Part shown: one piece after another, positions 12,754-30,366 of the stretch
How positions within the stretch are numbered: the stretch's first letter is position 1
How the letters are laid out: each line of letters starts with the position of its first letter
Assembly: GCA_022360445.1 (NCBI GenBank)
Contig: JAKSCV010000020.1
Coordinates: 1 to 64,000, forward strand
Direction of reading: 5' to 3'
DNA length: 64,000 bases
From: Gammaproteobacteria bacterium
GTDB taxonomy: Bacteria; Pseudomonadota; Gammaproteobacteria; UBA5861
The notes under the pieces: generated by a model
The model's input: only the letters and a program-made list of their open reading frames with translations
Database searches by the model: none
Told to the model about the DNA's origin: nothing
Program-made: the position numbers and the translations under genes

Positions 12754-13386
12754 TCAGTAGAGTAAATAGGTGAGTTGGTAGTCCTTATCACCCCGCCTCA
12801 CCGATAGCGTGAAATAGTGATGGTTATCCTGCATAGCCTTGACAGCCGCCAGCACCGTCTCAAGCTCTGAAACCGGGATATGATTGAAGGCATTAATCCG
12901 GTCCCCCTTTCTCAGTCCGTAGCGCTCCGCGACGCTGCCCCGTCTCACGCGTTGAATCTCATACGCGGTCAGTGTGCCGCTATCGACATGGGGAAATAAG
13001 TCGATATCATTCACAATCTGCTGGCCATTTTTTATCCAGCCCTTTAGCTCTTCCGCCTCCAGTAAGATTGTCTTCCACTCTGATACAGAAGCCCCGGATT
13101 CTTTCTCACCGGAAGATAGAAGCTCTTTGGTTTTCTGGCCATTACAAGTCAATGCTGCTTCTTCAGAAAGTATGGTGTTCACCACGCAGCGGCCTAACAT
13201 ATCCCCCGCCTGTAAGATCACCTCGCGTGTACCGCCCTGTTCCGTTGTGACAGAAAAAATCGCCACAGGGTGCTGCCCCGACAATGTACCTATGAGTTTG
13301 GGTGTCGCTTCATTCGCAGAGCCCAAACCACTGATGAGCAGCAACAGCACCATGAAGGTTCCACACCGGGCATATTGGCTGATCAT
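12754..13386 (-). CDS. GspC-like periplasmic PDZ-domain protein
   Basis: Exported or inner-membrane-anchored protein of 210 residues: signal/anchor at 1-24, a small beta domain around 33-85 resembling the GspC homology region (with Cys67 and Cys80), and a C-terminal PDZ domain (VRRGSVAERYGLRKGDRINAFN, about 147-168). GspC links inner-membrane parts of type II secretion to the outer-membrane channel, so a periplasmic coupling role is inferred. Last gene of the 17.5-kb locus; its ATG overlaps the stop of the TonB-like gene by 4 bp. Confidence 0.75.
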   Translation of the reverse strand: MISQYARCGTFMVLLLLISGLGSANEATPKLIGTLSGQHPVAIFSVTTEQGGTREVILQAGDMLGRCVVNTILSEEAALTCNGQKTKELLSSGEKESGASVSEWKTILLEAEELKGWIKNGQQIVNDIDLFPHVDSGTLTAYEIQRVRRGSVAERYGLRKGDRINAFNHIPVSELETVLAAVKAMQDNHHYFTLSVRRGDKDYQLTYLLY

Positions 13387-14408
13387 GCCGGGAAAAACTC
13401 AAAAGGAAGGCGTGTCACAAACACCTCGACATCTTTCGCACCAAAATTAATCAGCTTGAGACGCGCAAGCAACTTACGCTCCAGATCGGGCGATTGCAGT
13501 TCACTGGAAACCAGTTTCAAGTCTGTAATTTCGCCAGAAGGCGCGATGGTCAGCTCAACCAAAACAGTACCTTCTAATAAAGGGTTTTTACGCAACTCCC
13601 GATTATAGATATTGTAAATTGCCCCTTTGCTCTGATTAATCGTTCGCTTCACGCTTTCAAAGCTTCGTTTACCCTTGCCTGAGCTGCCACTGCCTCCCTG
13701 TGAACTGCCGGCACTGACGGCATTCGCACTTGAACTGCTGACATTGCTGGTGCCCCGCCCAGAAAACGCAGTCCCCCCCGTTGTCCGGGCAAGACCGTTT
13801 GAATTGACCCCTCCACTACCGGCACCCACCCCAGCCGCAATACGGGACGCAACCCCACCACTCGTTGAGCCACCAGTGGCGCTCTGGCTGCCTGCCCCGC
13901 TTCGTACAGTCGGCGTTTTACCCAATTGAGCTACAAGCTGACTGTCTCGCAAGTCCGATAAAGAATCACTCACAGCCAGCAAGCCCACACTCGCGGCTTT
14001 TTTTCTCGCAGCTGCTAACTCAACGGCTTGACTGGGTTTAGGTGACTGCTTCGGTTTGGGCGCAACTTTTCGAGTATTTTCCACAGTCTTCTGGGACTGA
14101 GGCTTGGGCTTCGGTTTAGGCTTTGGCTTGGGTGTTTCTTCTTTTTTTACCGCTTGCTCTCCATCACGCTTGCGAGGACTTTTGGGCGCTGGAGGAGGGG
14201 GCTTCTTTTGCTCAGTGATGAGCTGAACAAGGCGCGGAGGAATCTCAATGACTTCATCTTCTTCAGGCTCCGGTAACGTAATAAACGGAATAACGACGCT
14301 GAAAAAAAAGAAAAGTGTGATGCTGGCTAACAGAATATTCCGAAAACGCCTTTTATCCCGCGAAGAGACGTGCCAGGGTAAATGAGGTGAGTAAAAAGCC
14401 ACGCTCAT
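13383..14408 (-). CDS. TonB-like protein with AgmX/PglI-type C-terminal domain
   Basis: Inner-membrane-anchored, periplasm-spanning protein of 341 residues. A short basic N terminus and one transmembrane helix (about 27-44) are followed by a Pro/Lys-rich stretch (66-118, repeated PKPKPK), a Ser/Gly-rich linker (about 165-237) and a C-terminal domain (245-341, SFESVKRTINQ to LPFEFFPA). That domain matches the AgmX/PglI C-terminal family of Myxococcus gliding and related machines. By analogy with TonB it should carry proton-driven force from the ExbB/ExbD complex to the outer membrane. Its ATG overlaps the upstream ExbD stop (TAATG), with GGAG at the right distance. Confidence 0.85.
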   Translation of the reverse strand: MSVAFYSPHLPWHVSSRDKRRFRNILLASITLFFFFSVVIPFITLPEPEEDEVIEIPPRLVQLITEQKKPPPPAPKSPRKRDGEQAVKKEETPKPKPKPKPKPQSQKTVENTRKVAPKPKQSPKPSQAVELAAARKKAASVGLLAVSDSLSDLRDSQLVAQLGKTPTVRSGAGSQSATGGSTSGGVASRIAAGVGAGSGGVNSNGLARTTGGTAFSGRGTSNVSSSSANAVSAGSSQGGSGSSGKGKRSFESVKRTINQSKGAIYNIYNRELRKNPLLEGTVLVELTIAPSGEITDLKLVSSELQSPDLERKLLARLKLINFGAKDVEVFVTRLPFEFFPA

Positions 14409-14917
14409 TAAGACGCTCCAACCGCAGATTTTTGCATCACCGATAAGGAAATCCGGCTATAACCTGCATGGGTGCATGTAGTCATGATCTTCTTCAACAC
14501 ACTGAAAGGAATTTCCTTATCGCCCATGATGGTGACTTCACGACCAGCTTCAACCTCCTCTTTCCGTATCAGTGGCTGCCTTGCCGCGAGCCTTTTCAAA
14601 GCTTGGTGCAAACTCGGAATAATGTCTTCTTTGCTTCCGGCAACCTGTTCAAATGACGCCACACGATTGCCCTCAATGGCGATGGCTTTTTGAGATATTG
14701 TGATTTGAACCGTCTCTCTGGGCTTCTGTTCAGCCACTGACTCCGGCAAGCTAATATCTTTTGAGCTTTTGAGCACTTCGACATCTGACGAGTTCACTAA
14801 CAGGAAAAAGACCAAAATTGTGAAAATATCCATCAGGGAAATCATATTAAACGCTGGAAAATTTTTCCCTCGCTTATGGTGCTTATCCATCCGCTTAGCT
14901 CTGCGTGACATTTTCAT
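14408..14917 (-). CDS. ExbD/TolR-family protein with the conserved Asp
   Basis: Inner-membrane motor subunit of 169 residues: basic N terminus, one helix with the proton-carrying aspartate (Asp30, in MISLMDIFTILVFFLL), then a periplasmic ExbD domain. Unlike the neighbouring ExbD copy it keeps the acidic residue needed for proton use in ExbD/TolR/MotB-type motors. Fifteen bases downstream of the other exbD and overlapping the TonB-like gene by one base. Myxococcus Agl motors likewise use two TolR-like subunits. Confidence 0.9.
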   Translation of the reverse strand: MKMSRRAKRMDKHHKRGKNFPAFNMISLMDIFTILVFFLLVNSSDVEVLKSSKDISLPESVAEQKPRETVQITISQKAIAIEGNRVASFEQVAGSKEDIIPSLHQALKRLAARQPLIRKEEVEAGREVTIMGDKEIPFSVLKKIMTTCTHAGYSRISLSVMQKSAVGAS

Positions 14918-14932
14918 CCGCTGATTACCTCG

Positions 14933-15415
14933 CTAACCCGCTTCACCCAACGAAATGGATGGAAACAGATCAATGCGCTGCGACTTGCCATCTATCGTGA
15001 CGACCGCTGTTCTGGCAGCATCCATCACTTGCACTAACGTGTCATAACTGACGTCTTTTTCAAGCAGAATACGAACATCCTTGGTCGTGCCGGAACGGCT
15101 TTTTATCTTCACCAACAAATCAGATAAGGAAGCCATATCAAAAGTCCCATCTTTTCGTTTTTTATAGGTACGAATCAGCCCGTTGCGGTCAGCCACACTA
15201 ATATCACCCTGCGTGATAGATAACTCTAAGTTAAGCCCCTTGGAAGGCGGAGAGGTTTGAGCGTTATCCGAAGGCAGGTTTAACTCGAGAATTGTTAACC
15301 GAGAAAAAACAGCGGTTATCAATAAGAAAGGAACCAGAACAACCATCAAATTCATAAAGGCTGTGACATTGAGCTCCGCTACTTCATGCCGTTTTGATGC
15401 ACGCCGTCGTCTCAT
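14933..15415 (-). CDS. ExbD/TolR-family protein with Asn in place of the conserved Asp
   Basis: A 160-residue ExbD/TolR homologue: basic N terminus (MRRRRASKRHE), one transmembrane helix (about 16-38), periplasmic domain. In the helix the position of the essential aspartate is Asn22 (VTAFMNLMVVLVPFLL), so this subunit should not carry protons itself. It may be a structural partner of the Asp-bearing copy encoded next. Its start overlaps the ExbB stop (TAATG). The family is certain; the Asp-to-Asn reading rests on eye alignment of the helix. Confidence 0.88.
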   Translation of the reverse strand: MRRRRASKRHEVAELNVTAFMNLMVVLVPFLLITAVFSRLTILELNLPSDNAQTSPPSKGLNLELSITQGDISVADRNGLIRTYKKRKDGTFDMASLSDLLVKIKSRSGTTKDVRILLEKDVSYDTLVQVMDAARTAVVTIDGKSQRIDLFPSISLGEAG

Positions 15416-16065
15416 TACGCGGCAGCCTTCGGTTTAGACCGGCGCCGGCGCATGAGCTGGTTGACAAACTTCACTGAAACCATTTCCAGGCTATCAATAA
15501 TTTCCGTGGTTTTGGAAACCAAAAAGGCGTGCAGCAGTAAAAGAGGAATCCCTACCATCAGCCCAAAAGCCGTGGTATTCATAGCAACCGAGATACTGGC
15601 AGACAGCAAATCAGCTTTGTCGGCTGCGCTTGCTGAAGCGACCGCAGTAAACGCCTGAATAAGACCAATAATCGTGCCCAACAGCCCGAGCAGCGTCGCA
15701 ATATTCGCAAACGTGGCAAGATAGGGTGTTCTTTTCTCCAACTTTGGAATCACTTCCATCAGCCCTTCTTCCATCGCCATTTCAATTTCAACCTGGGAAC
15801 CACCAGCCCGACTGAGACCATAGCCAATGACGCGGTCCATCGCTGTGTTGTGGTCTTTGGTCATCATCAATACCGCCTGGAACTTACCTTCATTGAGCAA
15901 CGGCTCAATTTCGTACCAGGCTTGCCGGTTCTCGCGCTTTGTGCGATTTAAAAAAACCAAACGCTCAACGGCGATGGCCAACCCAATCGCCAAAACAATA
16001 ACAATGGGGTACATAAAAACCCCACCGGTTTGAAAAAAACGAATAATTGCTTCAAATGCTTCCAT
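15415..16065 (-). CDS. MotA/TolQ/ExbB-family proton channel protein
   Basis: Inner-membrane protein of 216 residues with the TolQ/ExbB layout: one N-terminal helix (about 17-36), a cytoplasmic loop, then two helices holding TFANIATLLGLLGTIIGLIQAF and SISVAMNTTAFGLMVGIPLLLLH. It forms the stator that drives the ExbD and TonB-like subunits encoded directly downstream. There is a single copy for two ExbD genes, as in Agl-type motors. Confidence 0.92.
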   Translation of the reverse strand: MEAFEAIIRFFQTGGVFMYPIVIVLAIGLAIAVERLVFLNRTKRENRQAWYEIEPLLNEGKFQAVLMMTKDHNTAMDRVIGYGLSRAGGSQVEIEMAMEEGLMEVIPKLEKRTPYLATFANIATLLGLLGTIIGLIQAFTAVASASAADKADLLSASISVAMNTTAFGLMVGIPLLLLHAFLVSKTTEIIDSLEMVSVKFVNQLMRRRRSKPKAAA

Positions 16066-16094: not shown

Positions 16095-16400
16095 TCAGTC
16101 CGACACACTTAATTGGTAATAGTAGGTTTCACGTTGGAATTCATCTCGGTTAATCGGCTTGATTTCATCATTCAACACACTGCTGATAGGACGATTCGGC
16201 AAAGCACCCGACTGTGTATTTTTCCAAGGCACAATAGTGACCGCCTTAGGCAGCTCCCGGTTACCGATAATAGAGATCCCTGCGCGATTGGTTTCACCAT
16301 CAGCGGCCAGTGCTAATACTGGCATGCTGAGGTAGACTAAAGCGACGCCGCGCCATAACCCTTTATAGACGTTTTTTTTCACCCATGAATGCTTCATCAT
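16095..16400 (-). CDS. Small exported protein of unknown function
   Basis: About 101 residues with a clear signal peptide (hydrophobic GVALVYLSMPVLALAA, cut near residue 33) and a short polar mature part ending YYYQLSVSD. I recognise no family. The ATG at 16400 overlaps the stop of the upstream TPR gene and follows AGGA by five bases; an open frame begins 36 bases earlier without support. It lies between the TPR and ExbB genes, so it is probably a periplasmic piece of the same machine. Confidence 0.65.
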   Translation of the reverse strand: MMKHSWVKKNVYKGLWRGVALVYLSMPVLALAADGETNRAGISIIGNRELPKAVTIVPWKNTQSGALPNRPISSVLNDEIKPINRDEFQRETYYYQLSVSD

Positions 16401-16969
16401 TTCTGTCCTATACGTCGCTTCAAATCCTTGATCCATAGACTGACTTGCTTATCTTTACCCTGAGTGAGCGTTTGATACTGCATGTAATTATCGATAGCAC
16501 AGGAAAAATCACGCAGGTACAAGTCACACAAAATGCCTAAATTGCGATAAGCGGGAGAATAGGTTTTATCAACGGCAATGGCTTTCAGGTAAGCGCTTTT
16601 TGCCTCATCAAAACGGCCCTCATTACGATATAAAACACCCAACTGGTTGTAGATAACCACGGAGTCCGGTTTAATTTTCTGAGCTTGGGTAAATGCCTCC
16701 AGAGAGTTTCCCGACTGCCCCAGTTTTCGGTAAGCAATGCCCATGTTCAAATAAGGACCCACCAGATCAGACCGCTTTTGTGTAATGGAATGAAAGACCT
16801 CGACGGCGGGCTGATATTTTTTTTCTTTCATCAACCGCAAACCCTGCTGATATTTCTCAGTCACCGCAGTATCAACAGGCTTAGTGCCCACCCCACTGCA
16901 TGCTGCCAGCCCAAAGACAAGTAGCAGACCGATATGCTTCTTCAGCTGATCAATGAATAGTCGCAACAT
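16397..16969 (-). CDS. TPR-repeat lipoprotein
   Basis: A 190-residue lipoprotein (lipobox LAAC, Cys24) with about three to four tetratricopeptide repeats (YQQGLRLMKEKKYQPAVEVF, AYRKLGQSGNSLEAFTQAQ, YRNEGRFDEAKSAYLKA, AYRNLGILCDLYLRDFSCA). TPR lipoproteins such as AglT/GltE sit beside TolQ/TolR motors in Myxococcus, where they build the periplasmic part; this is the closest role I can offer. The start is uncertain: 16987 (ATGAGC) is an alternative giving six more residues. It overlaps the end of the large TPR gene. Confidence 0.78.
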   Translation of the reverse strand: MLRLFIDQLKKHIGLLLVFGLAACSGVGTKPVDTAVTEKYQQGLRLMKEKKYQPAVEVFHSITQKRSDLVGPYLNMGIAYRKLGQSGNSLEAFTQAQKIKPDSVVIYNQLGVLYRNEGRFDEAKSAYLKAIAVDKTYSPAYRNLGILCDLYLRDFSCAIDNYMQYQTLTQGKDKQVSLWIKDLKRRIGQK

Positions 16970-19886
16970 AATCTTCCGTTTGCTCATATTTCGCGTAACG
17001 TGCTGGTTGAAGGCTGGACAAGCGCCATAAACTTTTACGTACCCACTTATCGAATACACCTTCAGTCACTCTGTCTGCATTGATTGACAAAATTCCAATG
17101 GCTTTTTCTTCATAAGGGAAGGCTTTTTCCTCAAGCAGTAAATCATACTGCTCCGCTTCCAACTGACTTAACCCTCGAGGGCGTGGTGACGTGAGCCAGG
17201 CTTGGCTGAATTGATGGTAAATTTCACCGCTGTAATAGGTTGTCGCCGTTGTCGTCTCCAAAACACCATAAGCTGCGACCTGCTCAAACTGCTGAATCGC
17301 TTTTTTCATCAAGGCCGTTTTCTGCGCCAGCGTTTTCTTAAAAGGCTCTTTCAGCTTTACGCGAGAAAAAGATGCCATCGTCGTTTCCGCTAACTTTAAC
17401 GAGGCATTCGCAGCCAGATAACGTGAACGATCACTGCGATTTTTACCAGCCTTACGGTCAGCTTCAATGATTTGACCTCGCCAGTGATTCGCCGTTCGCT
17501 GGTCACCACGCCCGTCAGCAATGTCGACAATCTGCTGACGCCATTCCATAGTCTCATCAAATAATTGAGAATATTTCTGAATGAGATTTTTATACGCCGT
17601 AACCGCTTTTGTTGTCTCCCCTGTTTCCGCGTACAACGCTGCTGCTTCGGTACCCGCATCGCGCCGGGTCACTGGGTCAAACGAGGCATCATTCGCAATA
17701 CGTTCAAACGACATGGCTGCCTGTTTCTTTCGCCCGCTTTTCATGTAGACCACCGCCAGATTTTTTGCGACCTGTGGTTGGAGTGCATGTCGCGGAAATG
17801 TTTTGCGGAAGCCCTCTAATGTAAGGGCAGCTTCCTGCCAGTCTTCCATGGTAATTAAGACAGAAGCCGCATCGAAAAGGGCATTGGCGCTCGTCGATGT
17901 TCCTGGTGCGTCCACCAACACGCGTCGAAAATGGCTGACAGCTTGAGCCAAGTTGCCTTGTTGTTGGCTCACTTCTGCTTGTCGGTAAATCGCAACAGCC
18001 AACAGCTCACGCGTTTCAACCCGCGTCTTATCTTGCTTAGGCAAGCGAGCAAGAGTCTCCCGATACGCTTTTTCTGCCATGGCAAAGTCTTTTTTCTCAA
18101 AAGCAGCATGCGCCATTATTCGCCAGGCAACCCGGGTGTACTTCGGTGGCACCGGTAGTTGTGCATTAAGGATACGCCCGGCAACCTTCATGGCCCGGTC
18201 ATATGCCTGCAATTGATAAAGGTCCTCCGTCGTTCGGGCCAGTACAGGTATGACCTCAGCGTGAGCAGGAAAACGATCAGCAAACCGCAAAGCGCTGTCG
18301 ATGCCTTTCAGCCGCCAGTCAACAGCAGCCTTTTGCTCCGGGCTTTGTGTTTTTTGCTCGCTCTGACTGATATCAGCTAAACGTTTCTGGTGCTGATCAT
18401 AGGCTAAAAGTGCCGCATACCCTGACTCAGCTGACTTCGCTGAAACAGGATAAGCATAAGCCACCTCCTCGTAAGCGTTTGCAGCTTCTTCGTAACGTTC
18501 GCTTTCGTACAGTGCTTCGGCCAGTAGAAAATGCAGTTCCATCCGCTTCGGACTGCTGGAAACGTTTGCCAGATAAAGGCGATACCAGTTGATCGCTGCA
18601 CTGTAATGGGCCAATGCTTCCTGTCGTTTTTGGGCACGTTCTTTTGTAGATCCTTTTGTCCCTTTGTTACGAGCAGGGTCCGTTTGTTGCGCCAGCGCGT
18701 GATAATGGCTGGACAAATCGATCAGGTAACTCTCAAAATGACTTTGTGCCTTTTCAGCAGAGGTTGCATTCGCTTGTTTCCAACCCGGCGCATGACGCTG
18801 ATACAGGTTGACAAATTTTTTCTTCGTTTCAATCAGCTTTTCCGGGAAGCCGCCTTTTTGGTAACTGTCTACTGCACGTACAGTAAAATAAGGCGCGCGC
18901 GCTGAGGCCGGGGAACGGTTCACATATGCCAGATTAACTTCCGCTGCGTCACTGTAACGTTTCTTTTCGAACAGCAATGCCGCTAGGCGATCATAAATCT
19001 GGTCTTCGTAATGACGGCCATTAATGGCGTCAAAATAACGCCCCACCTGATTATCCTTTTCCTGGTAGGAAAAGTTCAGACTAATGGCTCTAAAGCTATC
19101 TTCTACCCACTCCCGATCAGACCCGTTCAATGCCGCCACTTCAACCTGCCCCAGCTCTTTCCCTGGCAGTACGGAATCTATTAACTCAATAAACAGATCT
19201 GTCGATGCTTTAAACTGGCTGAGCTTAAAAAGCGTCCACCCCTGTTTGTAAAGGGCTTGTTGGTAAAAACTGGACGTCGGCTGAGCCTGTAAGACAACCT
19301 GGTAAGCCTGTGCCGCCGCTTCATAATCACGGCGCTCAAAAAGAAGCTCCCCCCGCCTGAATTGAACCTCATCCAGGTTTTCAAGACCTGGACGGCGCTT
19401 GATCAGGTCCGTCAAAGTTGCCAGCACCATTTCAGAATTACCTTGAAGTTGGTAGGCACGGGAGAGTTGGTAATAGACTTCCGGATTGGCCTCCCCAGCT
19501 GTTTCAGCCTGAATCAAGTTTTGATAGTGCGCAACCGCATCGGCATAACGTTGTTTGGATTCCTCCAACGCTTCTCCTGCTTCCGTTTCACTCTGTGTTT
19601 CTGCGGCCTCAGCATCTTTTGCCTCCGCAATCGCCAGCTGGATATCGGCAACTTGGCGCACCAGTTCATTTTTTTCAACCGGGGCCCCTCGCTCGAGCAG
19701 GGACTGATATTGGTTTAACGCTTTCTGTTTTGCCCCTTCAATCGCGGGCGCCTCCCGCGCAACAAACTGGCGCTTATCCAAGCTGGCCAGGGTCTCTTCT
19801 CCTGAGCCGCCCCAAAGGCCACAAGCGATAAGCTGAGTCGAGATCGCACCAAGTAATACAAAGCGAGCGTAGCGCATCTTAGTCAT
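16950..19886 (-). CDS. Large TPR-repeat lipoprotein
   Basis: About 978 residues: short basic N terminus, lipobox (LIAC near residue 22), then almost entirely TPR-like helical repeats (for example YYQLSRAYQLQGNSEMVLA, FRRGELLFERRDYEAAAQAY, AVYMKSGRKKQAAMSFERIA). It should be a periplasmic scaffold anchored in a membrane, resembling the large TPR proteins of Agl/Glt-type machines in size and repeat style. I start at ATG 19886, overlapping the upstream stop by 8 bp; the longer frame from 19928 would push the lipobox too far from the N terminus. Confidence 0.8.
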   Translation of the reverse strand: MTKMRYARFVLLGAISTQLIACGLWGGSGEETLASLDKRQFVAREAPAIEGAKQKALNQYQSLLERGAPVEKNELVRQVADIQLAIAEAKDAEAAETQSETEAGEALEESKQRYADAVAHYQNLIQAETAGEANPEVYYQLSRAYQLQGNSEMVLATLTDLIKRRPGLENLDEVQFRRGELLFERRDYEAAAQAYQVVLQAQPTSSFYQQALYKQGWTLFKLSQFKASTDLFIELIDSVLPGKELGQVEVAALNGSDREWVEDSFRAISLNFSYQEKDNQVGRYFDAINGRHYEDQIYDRLAALLFEKKRYSDAAEVNLAYVNRSPASARAPYFTVRAVDSYQKGGFPEKLIETKKKFVNLYQRHAPGWKQANATSAEKAQSHFESYLIDLSSHYHALAQQTDPARNKGTKGSTKERAQKRQEALAHYSAAINWYRLYLANVSSSPKRMELHFLLAEALYESERYEEAANAYEEVAYAYPVSAKSAESGYAALLAYDQHQKRLADISQSEQKTQSPEQKAAVDWRLKGIDSALRFADRFPAHAEVIPVLARTTEDLYQLQAYDRAMKVAGRILNAQLPVPPKYTRVAWRIMAHAAFEKKDFAMAEKAYRETLARLPKQDKTRVETRELLAVAIYRQAEVSQQQGNLAQAVSHFRRVLVDAPGTSTSANALFDAASVLITMEDWQEAALTLEGFRKTFPRHALQPQVAKNLAVVYMKSGRKKQAAMSFERIANDASFDPVTRRDAGTEAAALYAETGETTKAVTAYKNLIQKYSQLFDETMEWRQQIVDIADGRGDQRTANHWRGQIIEADRKAGKNRSDRSRYLAANASLKLAETTMASFSRVKLKEPFKKTLAQKTALMKKAIQQFEQVAAYGVLETTTATTYYSGEIYHQFSQAWLTSPRPRGLSQLEAEQYDLLLEEKAFPYEEKAIGILSINADRVTEGVFDKWVRKSLWRLSSLQPARYAKYEQTEDYVATIH

Positions 19887-21810
19887 TGCCCCCGTCATCA
19901 ACGACCTCGCCTGTTGCTTCACCCGCAAGATTATACGCTTCCGCCAAGGCCAGCAGACCGTACTGCCGGTATTCCTGAACCTGCTGTTGCTTCAATGACA
20001 ATGCCTCAAACACAAGTTGATTGATGTATTCCAACTGCCGTTGCATGACCGGCTGAACCTGTTGTTGCAATTGTCTGACCCACTGAGCATTTTGATGTAT
20101 GCGCTGGTCAAAACCTGCAAAGGTGGTCGCTGCGGCCGCCCGGGCTTGTCTCAGTGCCTTTACACGTTCTTTAATGCTGTCCTGCGTTGTATTGATGGTT
20201 TTCAGTGATTTTTCGATCGCCCACCGCCGTTCCACATATTGCGCACTGATGTCCCAAGTCAGAATGCCCTGAAAAAAGGCGCGCTTCTGCGCCATGAATG
20301 TCAATTCCGGCGAGGCGGTAACGGCTGAAAGGCTCGCCACACGTTGATCAACTTCATTAAGCTGAGTCAGGAGGCGATGCTCTTCGGGGGAAGCCAGCCC
20401 TTCAGGCGTGGCTTTTTCAACCTCAAACCGCTGCAGCAAACTTTGTTGCCGTGTTTCCAGCAGGTTGATATTGACCCGATTCAAAGTTTGCTGAATTAAC
20501 GGCGCAGATTGCTTAAAGCGCGCACGCCGAGCAGCAACCATATCGTTAAACGACGTTATGCTCTCTGCCCAGTACGCCAAGTTTTGCTGCATAAACAACA
20601 AATCACGGTAATTTTTTACCGCTTCTACAAAATGTGTTTGTGCCAGCAGCTCCGGGAGATAAGCGCTAACAGCACTGTCGGGCAATTCGCTTACCATCCA
20701 GAACCAGTCTTTTTGCGCGATGAATGGGGTATTGGTCAAATCACGACTCAACTCGCCCTGTCTGACAGACTGCTTAGCTGCTTCAAGACGGGCATATTCC
20801 TGATTCAGCTTCTCAATCGTTTGCTGATAAAGGTCCGCAGCGACGGCATAGTTTTTTTGCTTGCCATAAACATGTGCAATCGCCATATGAGTTTCTTGTA
20901 CGGCAGCCTGGCTAAAATCGCGCGTCGCCAGTTCTTCCCACACAACCAGAGCCCTCTCATGTTGATCCAGTTCGCTGTAAGCCCAACCGAGGCCCAGCAG
21001 AGCTTTTTCAGAATAGGCGCTATTCAATCTGACGCCACGCAGAAACTTAGCGGCATCTTCAGGACGCTTCTTATCCAGAAGATATAGTCCCGCCGTGAGC
21101 TCGGCCCTGTCTTGCAGTGCTTTCGTGAGCGAATCATCAGGTTTATCACCCACAAGCTGGGTAAAAGCCTTCACTGCTTGTTGTTCGTTTGCCTGACGCA
21201 CGGCCATCACCCCCAGGTTATAGAGACCATAGTTACGCCATTCATCATGCATATTCTCCCAATCCGAGAGAATGTTCGCAGCTTGGGCGATTGCCCCTTG
21301 CCGGAAAGAGAGCTGTGCCTCCAGATAGACTTTTTCACTACCCAGCCGACCTGGCAACGGCAGCTTTGAACGGGCCAGGGAAGCTTGGGCCGCATCCAGC
21401 TTCCCACGTTGAAATTGTGTTTTCCCCAAGTAGAACCAGGCCCGACTCTTCATATCTTCATCTTCTGCGCGGTCCAGCAGTTCGATAAACGTTGCTTCTG
21501 CCTGCTCGTGCATGCCATAGGCCAGATATAAGCCACCTTTGAGCAACTGCCCATCTTGCGTATGATTGGGAATTTTTGATTGCGCCTGGACAACAGACAG
21601 CTTCACCAAGGGCTGGAACAACTCCCCCTGATAAAAATGAAACAGGACTTCGCCATAGTGAAGATCGTTGACGGCGCTGAGCTGAAAGCTTTTCTCTTGC
21701 GCATGAGATTCCACTGGCATAATAAGCAAAAGCATGCTTATGCCGAGGGCTAAAATGGCTGTGTGCATCATCTCACAGCGCCGTTTTTTGGGGAATAAGG
21801 TCAGCATCAT
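19879..21810 (-). CDS. Exported TPR-repeat protein
   Basis: A 643-residue secreted protein: signal peptide (hydrophobic 16-32, ending SHA), TPR repeats through about 60-340 (LYLAYGMHEQAEATFIELL, AWFYLGKTQFQRGKLDAAQASL), then a long helical, probably coiled-coil C-terminal half rich in Gln and Arg (about 400-620). Second of three consecutive TPR genes in the locus, with close or overlapping junctions. Role inferred as periplasmic scaffold; no enzymatic motif seen. Confidence 0.78.
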   Translation of the reverse strand: MMLTLFPKKRRCEMMHTAILALGISMLLLIMPVESHAQEKSFQLSAVNDLHYGEVLFHFYQGELFQPLVKLSVVQAQSKIPNHTQDGQLLKGGLYLAYGMHEQAEATFIELLDRAEDEDMKSRAWFYLGKTQFQRGKLDAAQASLARSKLPLPGRLGSEKVYLEAQLSFRQGAIAQAANILSDWENMHDEWRNYGLYNLGVMAVRQANEQQAVKAFTQLVGDKPDDSLTKALQDRAELTAGLYLLDKKRPEDAAKFLRGVRLNSAYSEKALLGLGWAYSELDQHERALVVWEELATRDFSQAAVQETHMAIAHVYGKQKNYAVAADLYQQTIEKLNQEYARLEAAKQSVRQGELSRDLTNTPFIAQKDWFWMVSELPDSAVSAYLPELLAQTHFVEAVKNYRDLLFMQQNLAYWAESITSFNDMVAARRARFKQSAPLIQQTLNRVNINLLETRQQSLLQRFEVEKATPEGLASPEEHRLLTQLNEVDQRVASLSAVTASPELTFMAQKRAFFQGILTWDISAQYVERRWAIEKSLKTINTTQDSIKERVKALRQARAAAATTFAGFDQRIHQNAQWVRQLQQQVQPVMQRQLEYINQLVFEALSLKQQQVQEYRQYGLLALAEAYNLAGEATGEVVDDGGND

Positions 21811-21834: not shown

Positions 21835-22389
21835 TTACCATTCCTTGACCACAAACTCGGGTTGCCTTTTGGTCACAGAGTCATCGATTTTCAACTCTAA
21901 GTACTTGACACCCAAATCCTTTTCAAAGCGAAGGTCTGCGCCGCGAAGATAGTCGCGCCCGCTTGGCCCCTTACCTACAAAAAAAGCAGACAACTCGTGC
22001 TCCCCCGTCTTCAGGTTACCCAGGTAAATTTTATGAATACCGCCTCGGTGGAGCGCATCCACTTCGCGCTCAGTGTATAAATAGTGGGCGACTTCTTTAC
22101 CATTCAATTCAATTTTTACCGAGTCCAAAGCGAAGAATTCCCCCACATCCATGGAAATGAAAACAGCCACTTGAGTGCTGGAGGGAAAGAGTAATTCTTC
22201 TTCGAGTAAAAACAGATCGCGATTGAGCGAAATCAACTCATCTTTCAGTGACTGCACTTCTTTATCCAACGACTGTGCCATCTGGCTCTCGCTTTGTGCG
22301 ACAGCAATCGCAGGCAACACCATCAATACCAGGGACACTCCCCTCGTCAACCGCTGAAACCAGCGTATCCGTCTATTCCATCTTGTCAT
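21835..22389 (-). CDS. Exported coiled-coil protein of unknown function
   Basis: A 184-residue protein with a signal peptide (about 1-31, ending AVA), a predicted coiled coil at about 35-66 (QSLDKEVQSLKDELISLNRDLFLLEEELL) and a C-terminal beta-rich domain (70-184) containing VFISMDVGEFFALDSVKIELNG and GEHELSAFFVGKG. I do not recognise the family with confidence. It leads the TPR/ExbBD block and follows the DUF3570 gene by 28 bases, so it may bridge barrel and scaffold. Confidence 0.65.
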   Translation of the reverse strand: MTRWNRRIRWFQRLTRGVSLVLMVLPAIAVAQSESQMAQSLDKEVQSLKDELISLNRDLFLLEEELLFPSSTQVAVFISMDVGEFFALDSVKIELNGKEVAHYLYTEREVDALHRGGIHKIYLGNLKTGEHELSAFFVGKGPSGRDYLRGADLRFEKDLGVKYLELKIDDSVTKRQPEFVVKEW

Positions 22390-22417: not shown

Positions 22418-23524
22418 TCAGTACCAGACTGAAAAGAAAATTTTTGCGGTATAGGCATCGAAAGAGTAATTTTCACCCGTGCCTGTTGAGTCGGTATAGT
22501 TGTCGTACTCATAAGAAATGCCTTCCAGACCAACATTCAATGTTCCTCGGTCCAAGCCATAGCGTGTATCGAAGAGTTGATAACTGGCCTGAACACCAAT
22601 CGTATGATTCGAGAACTGACTCAATTCTTTGTCACGAGCCATGTAATTTTGCTGCGCGTCGAAATTATCACTGTAAAAAGACGCTTGCCCTTGATCGTAA
22701 TAGCGGTAGTACACGTCCAAAATACTTAAGGTATCCAGGACGTAGCTCAAACCGATATTGAAACTGTGTGCATCGATATCCCAAGTGTCAGTAAAGTACC
22801 GGTAGCCAACGGAGCCTACCAGGCGTGAAGCCCAGTAATATTTGCCCGAGAATGAAAGCGCATGACTGGTCCGTGTCCTGGGGTAAACTTCATCACCGGC
22901 AAATACACCGAGAATCCGCACTTTCCGGTAAGGGTTATTCAAAAAGCCCTCATCAGCCACCGTTTCCAAATTAGCATTGACGATCAAGGCGTCGCTGAGT
23001 ATCTGGCTAAGGCCCAGTTGATAGGACATTCGATCGACATCTTCAGAGAAAGCGGGGTTGTCCACGTTACCGACCTCGTCATCGCCACGCGAAACACCCA
23101 TGGTCACGGTCGTCATACCCCCGAAGACTTCCTGTGACAGTCCCAAGTGATATGTGTTGGCGGAGTAGTCGCTCTCCTCACTGTTGGTAAAACTCATATT
23201 GATAACGGCATCGTTATGCAAGTAATCCGCACCGACAGAAAACTCATCTCGCGTGTCAGAGTATTTAGAGGCAGTGGCAATTACATCCGGTGACGCACCG
23301 CTGATTGCGTCTTGGTAATAACTGGCAGAAAACGAAAGATTTTGCCGGAAACCTTTGCGCACCAGGACAGCAGGACCGTTCACTTCCACGCCGCCGCCAT
23401 CATAACTGTGATACATCACATCAGCCCGATCTTCCGGCAGCACAGCGGCCCAAAGCGCCCCCACGCTCCAAGTGACCAGCGCAACTAAAAAGCTCGCTCG
23501 ACAAATCACATTAATTACAACCAC
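22418..23524 (-). CDS. DUF3570 outer-membrane beta-barrel protein
   Basis: A 368-residue exported protein of the DUF3570 family. After a signal peptide (ending near LWAA) it is built of alternating amphipathic strands and ends in a C-terminal aromatic (FFSVWY), as outer-membrane barrels do. The GTG start at 23524 has GGGAGG five bases upstream and lies inside the end of the DUF4266 gene. DUF3570, DUF4266, thioredoxin-like and ApbE genes occur together in other bacteria; the barrel's cargo is unknown. Confidence 0.85.
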   Translation of the reverse strand: MVVINVICRASFLVALVTWSVGALWAAVLPEDRADVMYHSYDGGGVEVNGPAVLVRKGFRQNLSFSASYYQDAISGASPDVIATASKYSDTRDEFSVGADYLHNDAVINMSFTNSEESDYSANTYHLGLSQEVFGGMTTVTMGVSRGDDEVGNVDNPAFSEDVDRMSYQLGLSQILSDALIVNANLETVADEGFLNNPYRKVRILGVFAGDEVYPRTRTSHALSFSGKYYWASRLVGSVGYRYFTDTWDIDAHSFNIGLSYVLDTLSILDVYYRYYDQGQASFYSDNFDAQQNYMARDKELSQFSNHTIGVQASYQLFDTRYGLDRGTLNVGLEGISYEYDNYTDSTGTGENYSFDAYTAKIFFSVWY

Positions 23525-23753
23525 AGCCTCCTCCCTGCGTGACACTGGCGCCTCGTGCACCCTCACGCACTTCCATCACATGCTGGCGATAGCGATCGGC
23601 GATCGGGTTACGTGAAAGACTCATAACCGGATCGGCAAAGTTTTCCCGCTCGTAGGGTTGCACCCAGGGTTTCAAACCACAGCTGCATAAAAGCACTGCG
23701 ACGATCAGTGTCATCAAGAGGTGTCGGCAAGGTCGGTAAGCAAGCAGGCTCAT
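23511..23753 (-). CDS. DUF4266 lipoprotein
   Basis: A lipoprotein of 80 residues (lipobox LCSC) with the DUF4266 signature PWVQPYERENFADPVMS and HVMEVREGARGA, ending in a Gly/Cys cluster (GGGCGCN). The terminal cysteines could be oxidised or bind metal, and the adjacent TlpA-like thioredoxin could act on them. It starts one base into the stop of the tlpA-like gene and overlaps the DUF3570 gene by 14 bp. Confidence 0.88.
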   Translation of the reverse strand: MSLLAYRPCRHLLMTLIVAVLLCSCGLKPWVQPYERENFADPVMSLSRNPIADRYRQHVMEVREGARGASVTQGGGCGCN

Positions 23754-24250
23754 TACTCTCTCACCAACTTTCGGATTTCATCCAGATAAATGGCGTCATA
23801 GCTTTTTTTGTACCCTCGATGAATGGCCCGCACAATGCCATCACGGTCAATCATGACAGTTGAAGGCATCGCATCTACGCCATACAGTTTGCTGATGCCT
23901 TGTTGCGAATCGAAAAGAACCGGGTAGGCCATCTGAAAATCTCGCATCATGCGCTCAGCGGCATCCCGGCGTTTATCAATATTGATGCCCATGACCTGAA
24001 ACCCCAGCTTTTCATATTGCTTATGCAGGGTATTCAACATGGGAATTTCTTCCCGACATGGACCACACCAGCTGGCCCAGAAATTCAACAAAATCACTTG
24101 TCCACGCTGCTCACTGAGCCGGAGGTTTTCCCCGCTTTGGCTTTTTAATACAAAGTCTGGCGCCTGTTGCTGTAACTGAACAGTTCCAGCCTGCACGCCA
24201 GTGACTACAACCACAATGAACGCTAATGTGTATTTGACGATTCGTTTCAT
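23753..24250 (-). CDS. TlpA/ResA-like periplasmic thioredoxin
   Basis: A 165-residue thiol-disulphide oxidoreductase: signal peptide (1-21), AhpC/TSA-thioredoxin fold, active site WCGPC (Cys62, Cys65) and the cis-proline region MPSTVMIDRDG. It should reduce or rearrange disulphides in the periplasm; likely partners are the CXXCH apocytochrome encoded upstream and the Cys-tailed DUF4266 lipoprotein downstream. Confidence 0.92.
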   Translation of the reverse strand: MKRIVKYTLAFIVVVVTGVQAGTVQLQQQAPDFVLKSQSGENLRLSEQRGQVILLNFWASWCGPCREEIPMLNTLHKQYEKLGFQVMGINIDKRRDAAERMMRDFQMAYPVLFDSQQGISKLYGVDAMPSTVMIDRDGIVRAIHRGYKKSYDAIYLDEIRKLVRE

Positions 24251-24258
24251 GTCACACC

Positions 24259-24912
24259 CTAAAAATAAAATCCCAATACCATATTCATCTGCAAGTTATG
24301 CTTGAGCTCCGACTGACCCAGCACATCCGTTTTAAAGATCAGGTCCCTTGCCTCAAACCGTATGCTGAACATCTCCATCGGTAAAATACGCAAGCCAAAC
24401 CCAACGTTGTAGGTAAACTCATCATCAACCACAAAGCTGGTACTCCCAGCCCCCGCCACCAGGTAGTAGCTACTGGCCCACGCCCGGCTTTTGCTCCAAA
24501 AAACCTCCCCTGGTAAAAAGTTATAACCAATAGATAATTGGTAGTAATCAATGCTCTCGGTCTCGCTCTCGAACAACGTCAAACCGATATTCCGGTAAGT
24601 ACTGTCTGAAACTTCTGACAAGCCGTAGACTGCCTCCAAAAAAAAGTCTTCGGTAACATGAAACGACAGCGCGGCGCCATAAACCGGCTCCGTTCCAAAA
24701 TCATTAATACTGAGCAGTCCGGCGAATACACTGGCTTCAAAGTCATAAGCATCAATGGTAGGCGGGGAAATATCCCGGCGATCAATATCCTGGCGGATGA
24801 CAGACGCCTGACGCTGTTCTGGGCTTGGGGCCTCTGCCGCCGAAAGAAAGGCCGGTATGAAAACACTTACGATGAAACCGAATAAACCTAAGCGCATTAA
24901 AATCCCCATCAA
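24259..24912 (-). CDS. Outer-membrane beta-barrel domain protein
   Basis: A 217-residue exported protein: signal peptide ending SAA near residue 26, a polar linker, then about eight amphipathic strands (VYGAALSFHVTEDFFLEAVYG, YNVGFGLRILPMEMFSIRFEARD) and a terminal FYF typical of outer-membrane insertion. It resembles the small barrel family found in Myxococcus and relatives. Its 5' end overlaps the SH3-barrel gene by 4 bp; the two barrels may be paralogues. Confidence 0.8.
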   Translation of the reverse strand: MMGILMRLGLFGFIVSVFIPAFLSAAEAPSPEQRQASVIRQDIDRRDISPPTIDAYDFEASVFAGLLSINDFGTEPVYGAALSFHVTEDFFLEAVYGLSEVSDSTYRNIGLTLFESETESIDYYQLSIGYNFLPGEVFWSKSRAWASSYYLVAGAGSTSFVVDDEFTYNVGFGLRILPMEMFSIRFEARDLIFKTDVLGQSELKHNLQMNMVLGFYF

Positions 24913-25652
24913 AAAAAGACCGAAAAGCCCGCGGTAACGGCGTGATACTCTTCGTTGCGATCATCTTCCACCAACAACCAGTAATTGCGATAGTCTGCTC
25001 TGAACAAAAAGCTCCGGCTGATGTATTTGCGGACACCTAAACCGGCACTAAAAACCGTATTTTGAGTCTGGTTTGCATTGACCAGGCTGGCTTGCGGCTC
25101 ATTATCTAACTCGCCAAAACCGATGGCTAAATTCGGCTGCCATGACCATTCCGGAAAAGGCTGACCCAGCAGTTCCAAGTGATAAAGTGATGAGCTGGAA
25201 AACGTGCCGGCAATTCGGCTATAGGAAAAATTGAGTAAGAGCGCATCATTGAAACGGAAACCGGTATGAAAAGCTACAATGGGGTCTTCCTGAAACACAC
25301 CGGAGGTCACTCCCAACTCGAATCGACGGCTCTCGTAGTCCGCCAAAAGGATTTCCTCAAACTTTATGCCCGTATCATCCTCTGTCACCGTCTGTTCCAG
25401 CTGGTTTTGCGTGACCCAGCCTTGCTTGCCATCGCCAGACTGCACCTTGTACCAATCTGTCTTTCGCTGCAGCACGATCAGCGTTTCCCCACGTGGTACA
25501 ACATGAAAAACAGGGTATCCACGACCAGACCCTGTATGCATTTCTATGTAGGGCTCAACCACTTTCACTCGCCAAAACTCATCCGCCAGCGCTCTGGAAT
25601 GAAAACCCAAAAGACTCATAACGCCCAGCAACAACAAAAAACGACCAACCAT
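24909..25652 (-). CDS. SH3-domain outer-membrane beta-barrel protein
   Basis: About 247 residues: signal peptide, a bacterial SH3 domain at about 26-90 (VVEPYIEMHTGSGRGYPVFHVVPRG ... DWYKVQ ... GWVTQNQL), then a beta-barrel ending SVFF. SH3b domains usually bind peptidoglycan or peptides, so this barrel may be tied to the cell wall. The ATG at 25652 is chosen because it is the first start after the preceding gene's stop (25658); no strong ribosome site is visible. Confidence 0.78.
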   Translation of the reverse strand: MVGRFLLLLGVMSLLGFHSRALADEFWRVKVVEPYIEMHTGSGRGYPVFHVVPRGETLIVLQRKTDWYKVQSGDGKQGWVTQNQLEQTVTEDDTGIKFEEILLADYESRRFELGVTSGVFQEDPIVAFHTGFRFNDALLLNFSYSRIAGTFSSSSLYHLELLGQPFPEWSWQPNLAIGFGELDNEPQASLVNANQTQNTVFSAGLGVRKYISRSFLFRADYRNYWLLVEDDRNEEYHAVTAGFSVFF

Positions 25653-25657
25653 TACAC

Positions 25658-26173
25658 TTAAAACCCACACGCACTGATTGTGGGTACTGTACACCGCCCA
25701 CAGCTATCGGCCGTTTCCTCATTCACCCGTGTAGCAATCCAACTTAAAATCGCTTGATAGCAACCATCGTTTTCATTAGGGAAAATATCGCCTCCGGTAT
25801 GTGTGCCAGAAATGGCGGAAATGCCATTGAGTGGTTCGAGCAATAATTTACTTTGAGGAGGTGTGGACATATTGGCGAATGCCCTGGCAGAAGTGAAGTT
25901 AGCAAGTAGTTTTGCCTGGTCATCACCGGGGTTCGGGAAAATCTTGAACCCGCCACCAGAGCCTGCGTTAATGTCATGACAACCGCTGGCTGAACAGGTG
26001 AGAGGCCCTGCCCTACCGTTAATGCTGGCGTGAAAAACGGGGTCAACACAGGCTTGATAGTCTGCAAGACAAAGGGTTTGTCCAACTTCTTCTTCGGGCT
26101 CAACTTCAACATTATCCAGACAGGCAGAGAGCGCAACAAGACATAATCCACACATTAATAACACTCTGATCAT
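25658..26173 (-). CDS. Lipoprotein with CX4CH haem-like motif
   Basis: A lipoprotein of 171 residues (lipobox LSAC) with a CSASGCHD motif at about residues 66-72. CX4CH motifs of this kind occur in planctomycete-type cytochrome c domains, so covalent haem binding is plausible but unproven. Further cysteines (QTLC, YQAC, DSCGRC) could form disulphides. It resembles the C-terminal part of the upstream tri-haem lipoprotein (both end in a YQAIxxWI segment followed by cysteines). 28 bases downstream of that gene. The ATG at 26173 has GGGAG about ten bases away. Confidence 0.7.
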   Translation of the reverse strand: MIRVLLMCGLCLVALSACLDNVEVEPEEEVGQTLCLADYQACVDPVFHASINGRAGPLTCSASGCHDINAGSGGGFKIFPNPGDDQAKLLANFTSARAFANMSTPPQSKLLLEPLNGISAISGTHTGGDIFPNENDGCYQAILSWIATRVNEETADSCGRCTVPTISACGF

Positions 26174-26201
26174 TGACTCTACACTCCCTGCCTTACGCCT
26201 G

Positions 26202-29009
26202 TTATGAACTACAGCTGGACTTATCCGCTGTATTAATCCAGTCAAAGATGGCTTGATAGGCAGCATCTGTGGTTGAGAGTACCGGCTTCTGGGCATTCGG
26301 ATCATTCGAAGCGGTATCTGCAATCTGAGGATGTGGCAATTGACTGGTCTCCATTGATGTCGGCCGAACGAGCAGAATGCTGTCTTCCGGTGAACACACA
26401 TCATTAACCATACTGACAGTGATATTGTAGTCCCCTTCTTCGCTACCCGTTAAGACAAAGCGACTACCCGAGCGACTTTCAACCGTTTCACCATTGGTAC
26501 TGCCCGAAGGCTGATGACAGCTTTGACAATTATCCATCAAGATTTGATGAACAGAGCTGGCAAAACCCTCTTCACTCAAGCTGGACATTGAGCGGCGCAA
26601 TTCCGAGATTGACTTAAGCCCATCGTCACCGGCACCGGAAATGTAGGGGTCATTGTAATATTGCGCACCTAAATCAACCCACTCAGCAATCAAACGCTTT
26701 TCGGCCTTGGTTAAAAATGGGCTATGACTTACCGTAGTTTCAAGCGCCTTGTCTGCTCGAAGCTCCTGCTCAAAGATTTTTTCAATCAAATAACTGGTAC
26801 GGGAACTCATGGCTGCACTACCGACACTAATCGCAGCTGGGTGACGCTGAATTTCCACATCACCATCGTCATCAATCTCAACGATTGGTAACCCGTCAGC
26901 ACCCAGTACCGGCGCGCCGGTTGTCAGTGACTCATAGGACTCCAGTCGCCCAGTTCCTGATACTGTCGCGGACAAATCCAGGTTCCCCATCAAGTCTAAC
27001 GAGTTATGGCAGTTAACACAGGTGTCCGCACCACCCACTCCGCGACTCACTGACCAGATGGATTGAATATGATCCGGGTAGTTAATCGCACCATCAGCCG
27101 GCACCAGCGTCATCAAATCATCTGTGGCGTTGGTATTACCCACATAAGCAATTCTCAGGTCAGCATCTTTACTACGCCCGGCGGCGGTCTCATCCGTCCA
27201 AATATCTGCATAATGCATATCCGCTTTGAGCTGGAGGTGACTGGGGTCCAGTCGTGTACGTGTTTCCGCCATGGATTCACCTTGCTCAGCCACCAGCACT
27301 GTATTCGGGTGATTCTGACCCGCCTCAGCACCGGTATTTAAGGCGCTGCTGCGACGCGGTGAGTGACAGCCGTTACAGGTTCTACGTTCCCCTGGCCGCA
27401 CCTGAATCCAGTTAGTATGCGTCTGAAATGCTCGCCCTTCACTATCGACGACGGCGACACCGATGGGTGTATCTGCTGGCACTTCTATTTTGAAAGAACC
27501 ATCTGGCTCGATCTCTGTGTACCCGATGATCTGCTGCATTTCAAAGTTACCTTGACCAATATCGGTTGACATACCCGGCGGGGTTGGCACCGCTTTGGTC
27601 ACTCGCAAAAATCGCCCCGGCCGTTCAGCAGCTGTGGTTTGCGCCGGATCTTTAAGCAGGGCAATGTCTGCCTCGCCGTCTACTTTGGGGATCGTTTCGA
27701 AATCAGCCAATACACGGTCACCCATTAAGCCTTGAGAATCTGTATCGTAAACGCTTTTGACATTTAAGATACCGGTTGTTTCCGCCGACGCCGGATCAAT
27801 CGTATCCGACTTTAAGTTGGGGACAGGCCGGGGCATAACAGCCACCGCATCCGTCAGCGAATACCCCTCTGGCGGCAGTGCAATTGGATCCATACTCTTT
27901 TTATCCAGATCGAACATGTAGATGCCATAATGGGGTGGACCCTCTTCCATTTCTGTCTCACCCGTCAATGGGTTTTCCACTTCCTGCGGCTGGGACGGCG
28001 TCCAAGAAACCAGCACCCGATTTGTTCCATCCCATAAAGGGTACGGAGTATTGAAGCGCCCTTTTTCAGAAATACCATCTCCGATGGGGATTTCCTCTGC
28101 TGTTGCCTGCGTTTGCGCATTATCTGACTCATCAATATCCACAAGCATCAGCGCACCACCCTCATGGGTCCCTGACAGGGGCATGAGTGAGGAGATCACC
28201 TTTCCAGCGTACGGGCTATCGGAAGGCAACTCTCTCGGGTGCAAAAAGCTATTGCCCGAACTAAACGCGCCATACAGTACAAACATCCCCGTACCATCCG
28301 GATTTGTTGTAAACAGTGGGAAATGGTTCCGCCCGGCCACATGATCCCAGCGGGCAAACATGATTTCACCGGAAGACAGCACCACCGGATTACGATCGTG
28401 ACTCTGGTTAAAAGAGATCTGGCGAATATTATCACCGTTATAATCCATCACATGAAGCACGATCACAGCTTCACGCTCATATTCATCGCGGTAAGCGTAA
28501 GGCTCCTTACCCTCTGACGACATGATTTGCATGGATTTTTCTTGGCGGCTGGACGAAAAAAGAATACGCCCATCAGGCAAGTATACGGGGTCAACATCAT
28601 TACCGGCATTGGCCGCCGCATCGTCAGAGATAATGCGGTGCAAATTGCCACTTTCTATTGTGTACTCCCAGATATTCCAGGTCGAATCATTCGGCCCTCG
28701 CATCGAAAAGAGGATCTTACTCCCGTCGTAAGATACCTCAGGGTCCGATACGTCGCCCTGACCTTGCGTGTAAGTTCCTGTGATATTCACAGGATCGGAA
28801 CCCGGTGACGCCAGGTCTCTCATATACAAATCACCACCTGCAGCAAAACGAGTTCCATCTGTTGGATTCCCCATCGCGGATGATTTCCGCTGTACATAGG
28901 TGACTTTAAAATCGCCATCGACGACCACGGTGCTATCCTTTTCATCAGAACAACCGACCATGAACGACGCTATCAGCAACCCTATAGCAAATCGGTGAAA
29001 ATATTTCAT
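26202..29009 (-). CDS. Tri-haem propeller lipoprotein, hydrazine-synthase alpha (HzsA)-related
   Basis: A 935-residue lipoprotein (lipobox VGC near residue 19). Residues about 80-400 are TolB/PD40-like propeller repeats (DPEVSYDGSKILFS, DPVYLPDGRILFSSSRQ, NPVVLSSGEIMFARWD). The middle resembles the HzsA domain (FLHPRELPSDSPYAGKVIS ... GTHEGGALMLVDID). Three CXXCH motifs follow: CNGCH (Cys545), CVNCH (Cys664), CQSCH (Cys828). HzsA relatives are widespread outside anammox bacteria and their reactions are mostly unknown; hydrazine synthesis is not implied, as no HzsB/C is present. It is a surface or periplasmic redox protein. First gene after a 241-base gap holding a 21-bp-spaced repeat. Confidence 0.82.
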   Translation of the reverse strand: MKYFHRFAIGLLIASFMVGCSDEKDSTVVVDGDFKVTYVQRKSSAMGNPTDGTRFAAGGDLYMRDLASPGSDPVNITGTYTQGQGDVSDPEVSYDGSKILFSMRGPNDSTWNIWEYTIESGNLHRIISDDAAANAGNDVDPVYLPDGRILFSSSRQEKSMQIMSSEGKEPYAYRDEYEREAVIVLHVMDYNGDNIRQISFNQSHDRNPVVLSSGEIMFARWDHVAGRNHFPLFTTNPDGTGMFVLYGAFSSGNSFLHPRELPSDSPYAGKVISSLMPLSGTHEGGALMLVDIDESDNAQTQATAEEIPIGDGISEKGRFNTPYPLWDGTNRVLVSWTPSQPQEVENPLTGETEMEEGPPHYGIYMFDLDKKSMDPIALPPEGYSLTDAVAVMPRPVPNLKSDTIDPASAETTGILNVKSVYDTDSQGLMGDRVLADFETIPKVDGEADIALLKDPAQTTAAERPGRFLRVTKAVPTPPGMSTDIGQGNFEMQQIIGYTEIEPDGSFKIEVPADTPIGVAVVDSEGRAFQTHTNWIQVRPGERRTCNGCHSPRRSSALNTGAEAGQNHPNTVLVAEQGESMAETRTRLDPSHLQLKADMHYADIWTDETAAGRSKDADLRIAYVGNTNATDDLMTLVPADGAINYPDHIQSIWSVSRGVGGADTCVNCHNSLDLMGNLDLSATVSGTGRLESYESLTTGAPVLGADGLPIVEIDDDGDVEIQRHPAAISVGSAAMSSRTSYLIEKIFEQELRADKALETTVSHSPFLTKAEKRLIAEWVDLGAQYYNDPYISGAGDDGLKSISELRRSMSSLSEEGFASSVHQILMDNCQSCHQPSGSTNGETVESRSGSRFVLTGSEEGDYNITVSMVNDVCSPEDSILLVRPTSMETSQLPHPQIADTASNDPNAQKPVLSTTDAAYQAIFDWINTADKSSCSS

Positions 29010-29181
29010 AACGAACCCCATTCAATCGTTGAGGAACAAACCTCACACTTAACGTTATTAAAGTGCCTGATTCACTGCGAAGCTAAACAAAATAGACCGG
29101 CGGCGTTGATTTTACGACACCCAACAAACCCTTGTTTTTTATGTGAAACAGGTCTCAATAAACACTCAGGAGTAATCCCTT

Positions 29182-29216: not shown

Positions 29217-29250
29217 GCGACTTTGGTCACAAAGCCACGGTCAGTCATAT

Positions 29251-30246: not shown

Positions 30247-30366
30247 TACCTGTTTACTACGATTCAAAGTCAAAAGCTTACGCTGTTCCCGTATTCATAA
30301 GTATGAACACTGTAATGTTATTTCATTACCAAAACACAAGCTAAAGAGGTGAGTCTACACCCACCA

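Follow-up and report, generated by a model that had tools for sequence, protein, structure and literature searches.

The window analyzed here (the whole 64,000-nucleotide stretch of contig JAKSCV010000020.1 from a Gammaproteobacteria bacterium) carries on its minus strand an operon (22389-12754) that is a glt "core complex", encoding an AglRQS-type motor of the kind shared with Myxococcus gliding. In one of the two axle subunits of this motor, the AglQ-like protein, the ion-carrying transmembrane Asp is replaced by Asn. Comparison of related AglR, AglQ and AglS sequences indicates that two pore modes exist in this family, two-Asp and one-Asp. The motor in the window appears, on balance, to operate in the one-Asp mode, with a putative AglR5:AglQ1:AglS1 composition and one live ion site. 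Rotation in the 5:2 motors (Mot, Ton, Tol, Agl and Gld) is thought to arise from two Asp residues that alternate around five channel subunits.

Genetic organization of the operon

All genes and codons described below are located on the minus strand. The gene order is hyp-GltC-GltD-GltE-hyp-AglR-AglQ-AglS-GltG, and each of these genes was found in 17-20 of the 20 sampled loci. The first gene (21835..22389) encodes a 184-aa exported protein, which has no Pfam family and is conserved in 18/20 loci. It is followed by genes for three TPR proteins: a GltC-like protein (19879..21810; 18/20 loci), named from gene order only, a large GltD-like lipoprotein (16950..19886; 19/20 loci) and a GltE-like lipoprotein (16397..16987; 17/20 loci; NF033758 GltE, 1.4e-7, below cut-off). 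In a profile search the GltD-like protein matched Myxococcus proteins of about 1180-1300 aa (best E value 2.5e-62). A small exported protein without a family in Pfam or NCBIfam (16095..16400), conserved in 17/20 sampled loci, separates this group from the motor genes.

The channel subunit is an AglR-like protein of the MotA/TolQ/ExbB family (216 aa; 16065-15415), assigned by Pfam MotA_ExbB (5.2e-27) and by alignment. Downstream are the genes of two ExbD-type subunits, the AglQ-like ExbD-1 (160 aa; 15415-14933; Pfam ExbD, 1.5e-16; profile pairing with Myxococcus AglQ) and the AglS-like ExbD-2 (169 aa; 14917-14408; Pfam ExbD). The next gene (14408-13383), present in 20/20 sampled loci, encodes a GltG-like, TonB-like candidate force transducer with one N-terminal transmembrane segment (TM), a Pro/Lys-rich linker and an AgmX/PglI C-terminal domain (NCBIfam NF033768, 3.7e-18, above cut-off); its matches to NF033760 GltG (2.3e-13) and Pfam TonB_C (9.5e-4) are both below cut-off. 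The initial annotation had described the ExbD pair as accompanied by one ExbB and one TonB-like gene, and these two genes do flank the pair. The aglR stop and the aglQ start overlap by 1 base, aglS starts 15 bases past aglQ, and the GltG-like gene overlaps aglS by one base; given these overlaps and the 15-base gap, the AglR, AglQ, AglS and GltG genes are probably co-translated.

The last gene of the operon (12754..13386), directly after gltG and overlapping its end, encodes an exported protein resembling PDZ and GspC C-terminal domains (PDZ_6, 4.2e-8; GspC_delta, 6.1e-11, below cut-off), and was present in 1/20 sampled loci. Directly upstream of the operon and on the same strand, the region 22418-30273 encodes a DUF3570 beta-barrel, a TlpA-like thioredoxin, ApbE, two small outer-membrane proteins (one with an SH3 domain) and a large protein with PD40, a hydrazine-synthase-alpha-like region and CXXCH motifs. 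Relatives of DUF3570, TlpA and ApbE were each found near the motor operon in 5/20 sampled genomes, and these neighbors possibly hint at periplasmic redox or flavin chemistry as its function.

The core complex comprises gltC, D, E and G together with aglR, Q and S. Luciano et al. 2011 (PMC3169522) reported it, as a system of unknown function, from Gammaproteobacteria and Geobacter among others; it is the presumed origin of the Myxococcus gliding machinery, but gliding was judged unlikely for the core complex alone. The same gene set is present in the window in one operon (GltC by gene order), together with extra genes that have no Myxococcus counterpart. The Asp/Asn difference is absent from the main text of that paper, in which "asp" has 0 occurrences.

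Relationship to known ExbD-type subunits and motors

Both ExbD-type subunits score above the cut-off of Pfam PF02472 ExbD/TolR (61.1 bits for the AglQ-like and 65.7 bits for the AglS-like protein, compared to 25.4), and both have one TM near the N-terminus and the ExbD periplasmic fold. Neither reaches the curated cut-offs of the ExbD (TIGR02803; 153) and TolR (TIGR02801; 127) equivalogs, the respective scores being 30 and 36 bits for the AglQ-like and 19 and 29 bits for the AglS-like subunit. The transmembrane Asp is no criterion of the Pfam ExbD model, yet it is essential in the studied members. AlphaFold monomer models, of moderate confidence (pLDDT 75 and 74) and silent on assembly, predicted a single N-terminal helix (residues 16-45 of AglQ, a span that contains Asn22) together with a periplasmic domain resembling that of ExbD; the top fold matches of the models were ExbD/TolR, and that of AglQ was the ExbD periplasmic domain.

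An ExbB-type gene with two different ExbD-type genes after it (Q, then S, told apart by separate profiles) is the arrangement of AglRQS. Myxococcus xanthus AglRQS likewise comprises one AglR and two different ExbD-type subunits in the order R-Q-S, and has counterpart GltD, GltE and GltG proteins; its identity to the window motor is 26-35%. The two motors differ in the pore: Myxococcus has AglQ Asp28, an AglS Asp and AglR Glu/Cys at 160/164, whereas the window motor has Asn/Pro in AglQ and Val/Thr in AglR. ExbBD and TolQR belong to the same family and share the pore threonines and the ExbD fold, but contain a single ExbD/TolR homodimer with two Asp. A heterologous axle-type pair with one channel gene is also known from TolQ with paired TPH-vWA proteins (PMC12204202); unlike the pair in the window, these keep the Asp and are not ExbD proteins.

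Conservation of Asn at the ion-carrying position of AglQ

In a profile alignment with E. coli ExbD (chain 6tyi_Y) the Asn column of the AglQ-like subunit coincides with ExbD Asp25, and the AglS-like subunit has Asp30 at this position. The codons are AAT for Asn22 (15352-15350; the ExbD Asp25/AglQ Asp28 position) and GAT for Asp30 (14830-14828), in agreement with the residues named in the initial annotation, and no acidic residue aligns with the critical helix position of AglQ. Seven residues further along the AglQ helix, codon CCT (15329..15331) encodes Pro29, the proline associated with the missing acid.

Examination of a 370-genome sample of the class to which the window belongs yielded 99 distinct clusters; the first ExbD had Asn in 96 of them, Ser in one and Asp in two, while the second ExbD carried Asp in 99/99. 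The other genome from the genus of the window also has this Asn, and all 16 generic ExbD control proteins, taken from relatives, had Asp. The possibilities that the Asn is unique to one genome or a sequencing error were rejected on these grounds, and both refuting conditions named in the initial annotation, an acidic residue aligned at the site and an Asn confined to this genome, were thus decided in its favor. Misalignment concealing a nearby acid was rejected from the E. coli ExbD profile alignment and from a count of acidic residues in the helix core: D/E occurred anywhere at +1 to +14 in 4/161 acid-less AglQ helices, and those inspected lay near the periplasmic end. An Asp within six residues before the site was present in 51/161 acid-less AglQ proteins; it is missing in the window, and so is no general substitute for the lost acid. 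No plasmid copies were found by tblastn.

Profiles of the two subunits were also used to recover aglRQS of Myxococcus sp. CA023. The Asn-subunit profile picked its AglQ, in which direct counting places Asp28 at the site (MAGGMDTGGGKGGKKSLDTSINLTAFID), as published, and the Asp-subunit profile picked its AglS, which also has Asp; the best AglR match was the aglR adjoining this aglQ. A Myxococcus AglQ already carrying Asn was thereby rejected. The genome of the cultured, non-pathogenic Enhygromyxa salina encodes an Asn/Pro AglQ. Named Myxococcota genomes were located with an MglA query, which served no other purpose; one assembly titled Comamonas sp. KCTC 72670 (L131) encodes an MglA that shares 99% identity with this Myxococcus query and is probably a mislabeled or contaminated myxobacterial assembly.

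In Myxococcus, Asp is found in both AglQ and AglS (PMC9389320), a feature absent from the window motor, in which AglQ has Asn. Substitution D28N in M. xanthus AglQ abolishes proton conductance, gliding and sporulation (PMC3858216). With Asn at the Asp28 counterpart, the window motor is therefore naturally in the state that is lethal to the Myxococcus motor. Since the Myxococcus D28N motor is dead despite its AglS Asp, one Asp is insufficient there, which is the principal objection to the reading favored here; we infer that the one-Asp mode must depend on compensating AglR and Pro changes; the covarying positions described below offer a testable reason.

Covariation between AglQ and the AglR pore helix

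For this analysis the sample was widened from the class to the phyla of Myxococcus, Enhygromyxa, a Nitrospirota genome and Geobacter, which gave 225 unique AglR-AglQ-AglS triples. In every one (225/225) an AglS-like gene adjoins the AglQ-like gene and the AglS site is Asp. The AglQ site is Asp in 64/225 and acid-less in 161/225, the latter comprising Asn (148), Ser (10), Cys (2) and Thr (1) and never a hydrophobic residue. The Ser, Cys and Thr variants were found in motors L124, L338-L345, L334, L337 and L324, and include a whole Ser clade among Geobacter-phylum genomes.

The two pore threonines of AglR, Thr131 (15673..15675; ExbB Thr148 position) and Thr165 (15571..15573; ExbB Thr181 position), are conserved in 224/225 and 225/225 triples, respectively. 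Three other positions follow the state of AglQ. The +7 Pro of AglQ is present in 152/161 acid-less proteins and in 0/64 with Asp. At AglR position 160, Glu occurs in 55/64 two-Asp and 0/161 acid-less motors (Val160 in the window; 15586..15588), and at position 164, Thr occurs in 149/161 acid-less and 0/64 two-Asp motors, the latter having Cys, Asn, Ala or Ser (Thr164 in the window; 15574..15576). Among the 207 AglR columns, 164 (0.91) and 160 (0.905) ranked first and second in class separation; the next value was 0.76 and the median 0.34. These two residues lie one and five residues before the invariant Thr165, which would place AglQ most simply in the pore, and by helix rise AglR 160 and AglQ 29 are expected at similar heights above the ion site.

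Mixed motors were also observed, namely two (L014 and L302) with AglQ Asp and Val160, and nine acid-less AglQ proteins without Pro29. Two motors from the class of the window have Asp in both axle subunits: L126, which also has AglR Glu160/Cys164, and L014, which is mixed (Val160/Asn164). In a second aglRQS-like cluster of Myxococcus sp. CA023 (L223) and in two other Myxococcaceae paralogue motors, AglR position 160 is Lys, placing in the pore helix a charge opposite to that of Glu.

The initial annotation had suggested an asymmetric stator with one dead and one live ExbD; it did not recognize the aglRQS-glt core complex, nor the Asn subunit as the counterpart of AglQ. The asymmetry gains support from the coordinated changes in the AglR pore helix, which point to an acid-less subunit that works inside the channel and is not debris. 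"Dead" is too strong a term, as the position is held to Asn, Ser, Thr or Cys and never hydrophobic; judged by this restriction, it has a job.

Phylogeny of the switch

A tree of 134 representatives was constructed with the four trait columns left out. Its supported branches force at least six switches between the modes. A history in which the acid was lost once and all two-Asp motors form one clade was rejected (log-likelihood 649 lower; p-AU 0.0003). Six independent contrasts agreed for Pro29 (5.3/6), Thr164 (5.2/6) and Glu160 (3.9/6), with no contrary cases; with only six contrasts, sign tests gave p values of about 0.03-0.5. The Nitrospirota motor L323 (AglQ Asp/Ser; AglR Glu/Ala) groups with L317 (Asn/Pro; Val/Thr), their AglR proteins being 70% identical, and a clade of four motors with Asp, Glu and Cys (L210, L313, L315 and L331) is nested in an Asn/Pro/Val/Thr group. 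As read from these sequences, coordinated switching is plain, and the tree does not separate gain from loss.

Proposed mechanism and alternative explanations

Ton, Tol and flagellar motors have five channel subunits around two axle helices, and the two axle Asp residues occupy different environments, one on the channel Thr and the other facing the cytoplasm (PMC12215075, PMC12905483). For symmetric 5:2 motors, models propose that the two Asp act in turn, in steps of 36 degrees and with 10 ions per turn; AglQ-AglS heterodimerization is an open question even in Myxococcus (PMC9389320). In the one-Asp motor, one AglQ helix and one AglS helix would share the central pore of the AglR pentamer (5:1:1). 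AglS Asp30 would be the sole site of ion uptake and release, acting against the AglR threonine ring (Thr131/Thr165), and AglQ Asn22 would take the place of a protonated Asp, always uncharged and able to form hydrogen bonds. Per ion cycle the axle would advance by one full AglR subunit, i.e. 72 degrees, with 5 ions per turn. Each of the two periplasmic domains would keep a role of its own, and movement would reach the outer membrane through GltG together with the TPR proteins GltC, GltD and GltE.

In solved motors ExbD, TolR and MotB are homodimers (PMC12215075), and by analogy the two subunits might form separate motors, a working AglR5:AglS2 and an AglR5:AglQ2 complex that is a non-conducting competitor, reserve or anchor. 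We regard this as unlikely: the AglQ-like gene never occurs away from an AglS-like gene in the 225 triples, Glu160 is missing whenever AglQ is acid-less though the AglS Asp is unchanged, which would be odd if AglS alone formed the working motor, and the AglQ2 form would conduct nothing, yet its Asn is tightly held. It is more doubtful still that AglQ-Asn sits outside the pore, at the channel rim in the manner of TonB/TolA, with AglS2 filling the pore. A proline in the helix is unusual in an axle, and TM3 of ExbB can also contact TonB/TolA (PMC12215075), so that covariation there is no strict proof of AglQ in the pore; but a TonB-like subunit is already supplied by GltG in 20/20 sampled loci, AglQ retains the layout of an ExbD with the ExbD periplasmic domain as its top fold match, and a polar residue occupies the exact axle position in 161/161 proteins. 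Separate complexes and rim placement fit the pore covariation less well than a shared pore.

A different proposal concerns the ion. AglR Thr131, Thr164 and Thr165 correspond to the PomA T158/T185/T186 triad, which is conserved in sodium stators, two of the three Thr being Ala in proton stators (PMC10374538). The channel ion site of the PomAB sodium stator, Thr-Thr-Thr, resembles AglR 131/164/165, although PomAB is flagellar and its PomB homodimer carries two Asp. With Thr164 the triad is complete in 149/161 one-Asp compared to 0/64 two-Asp motors, as expected if the one-Asp mode were coupled to sodium. However, Thr occupies the 164 position in 13/22 generic ExbB controls paired with an ordinary Asp ExbD, so the triad is no sodium marker in this family, and we consider sodium coupling, demoted by this result, improbable. 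Least credible of all is neutral decay, i.e. that the role of AglQ was lost and Asn arose by drift: it would account for loss of the acid and nothing beyond, whereas the site is Asn in 148/161 and otherwise only Ser, Cys or Thr, and coordinated switches recur, including lineages nested in acid-less groups in which Asp, Glu160 and Cys/Ala164 appear together.

Implications

The main texts of the open-licence literature searched did not report an ExbD or AglQ naturally without the Asp, an asymmetric axle or a coupled switch; the Asn mode appears to be new, while the operon and the motor family were already known. Its conservation across several phylum-level samplings sets the Asn apart from a mutation of one genome, and some membrane motors seemingly run on one ion site in place of two. 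These motors could quite possibly be widespread, naturally evolved asymmetric ion motors with a heterodimeric single-site axle, in which the pore is co-adapted by a four-position switch that passes back and forth between the modes, with the number of ions per turn halved and the ion possibly changed. The finding points to a reason for the existence of motors that have two different axle genes. A one-Asp family with covarying pore residues bears on the need for both Asp and on the question of a channel common to AglQ and AglS; it would provide a ready-made test of ions per turn, step size and the channel residues that make one Asp enough, and the four residues define a concrete swap between the modes for a tractable motor.
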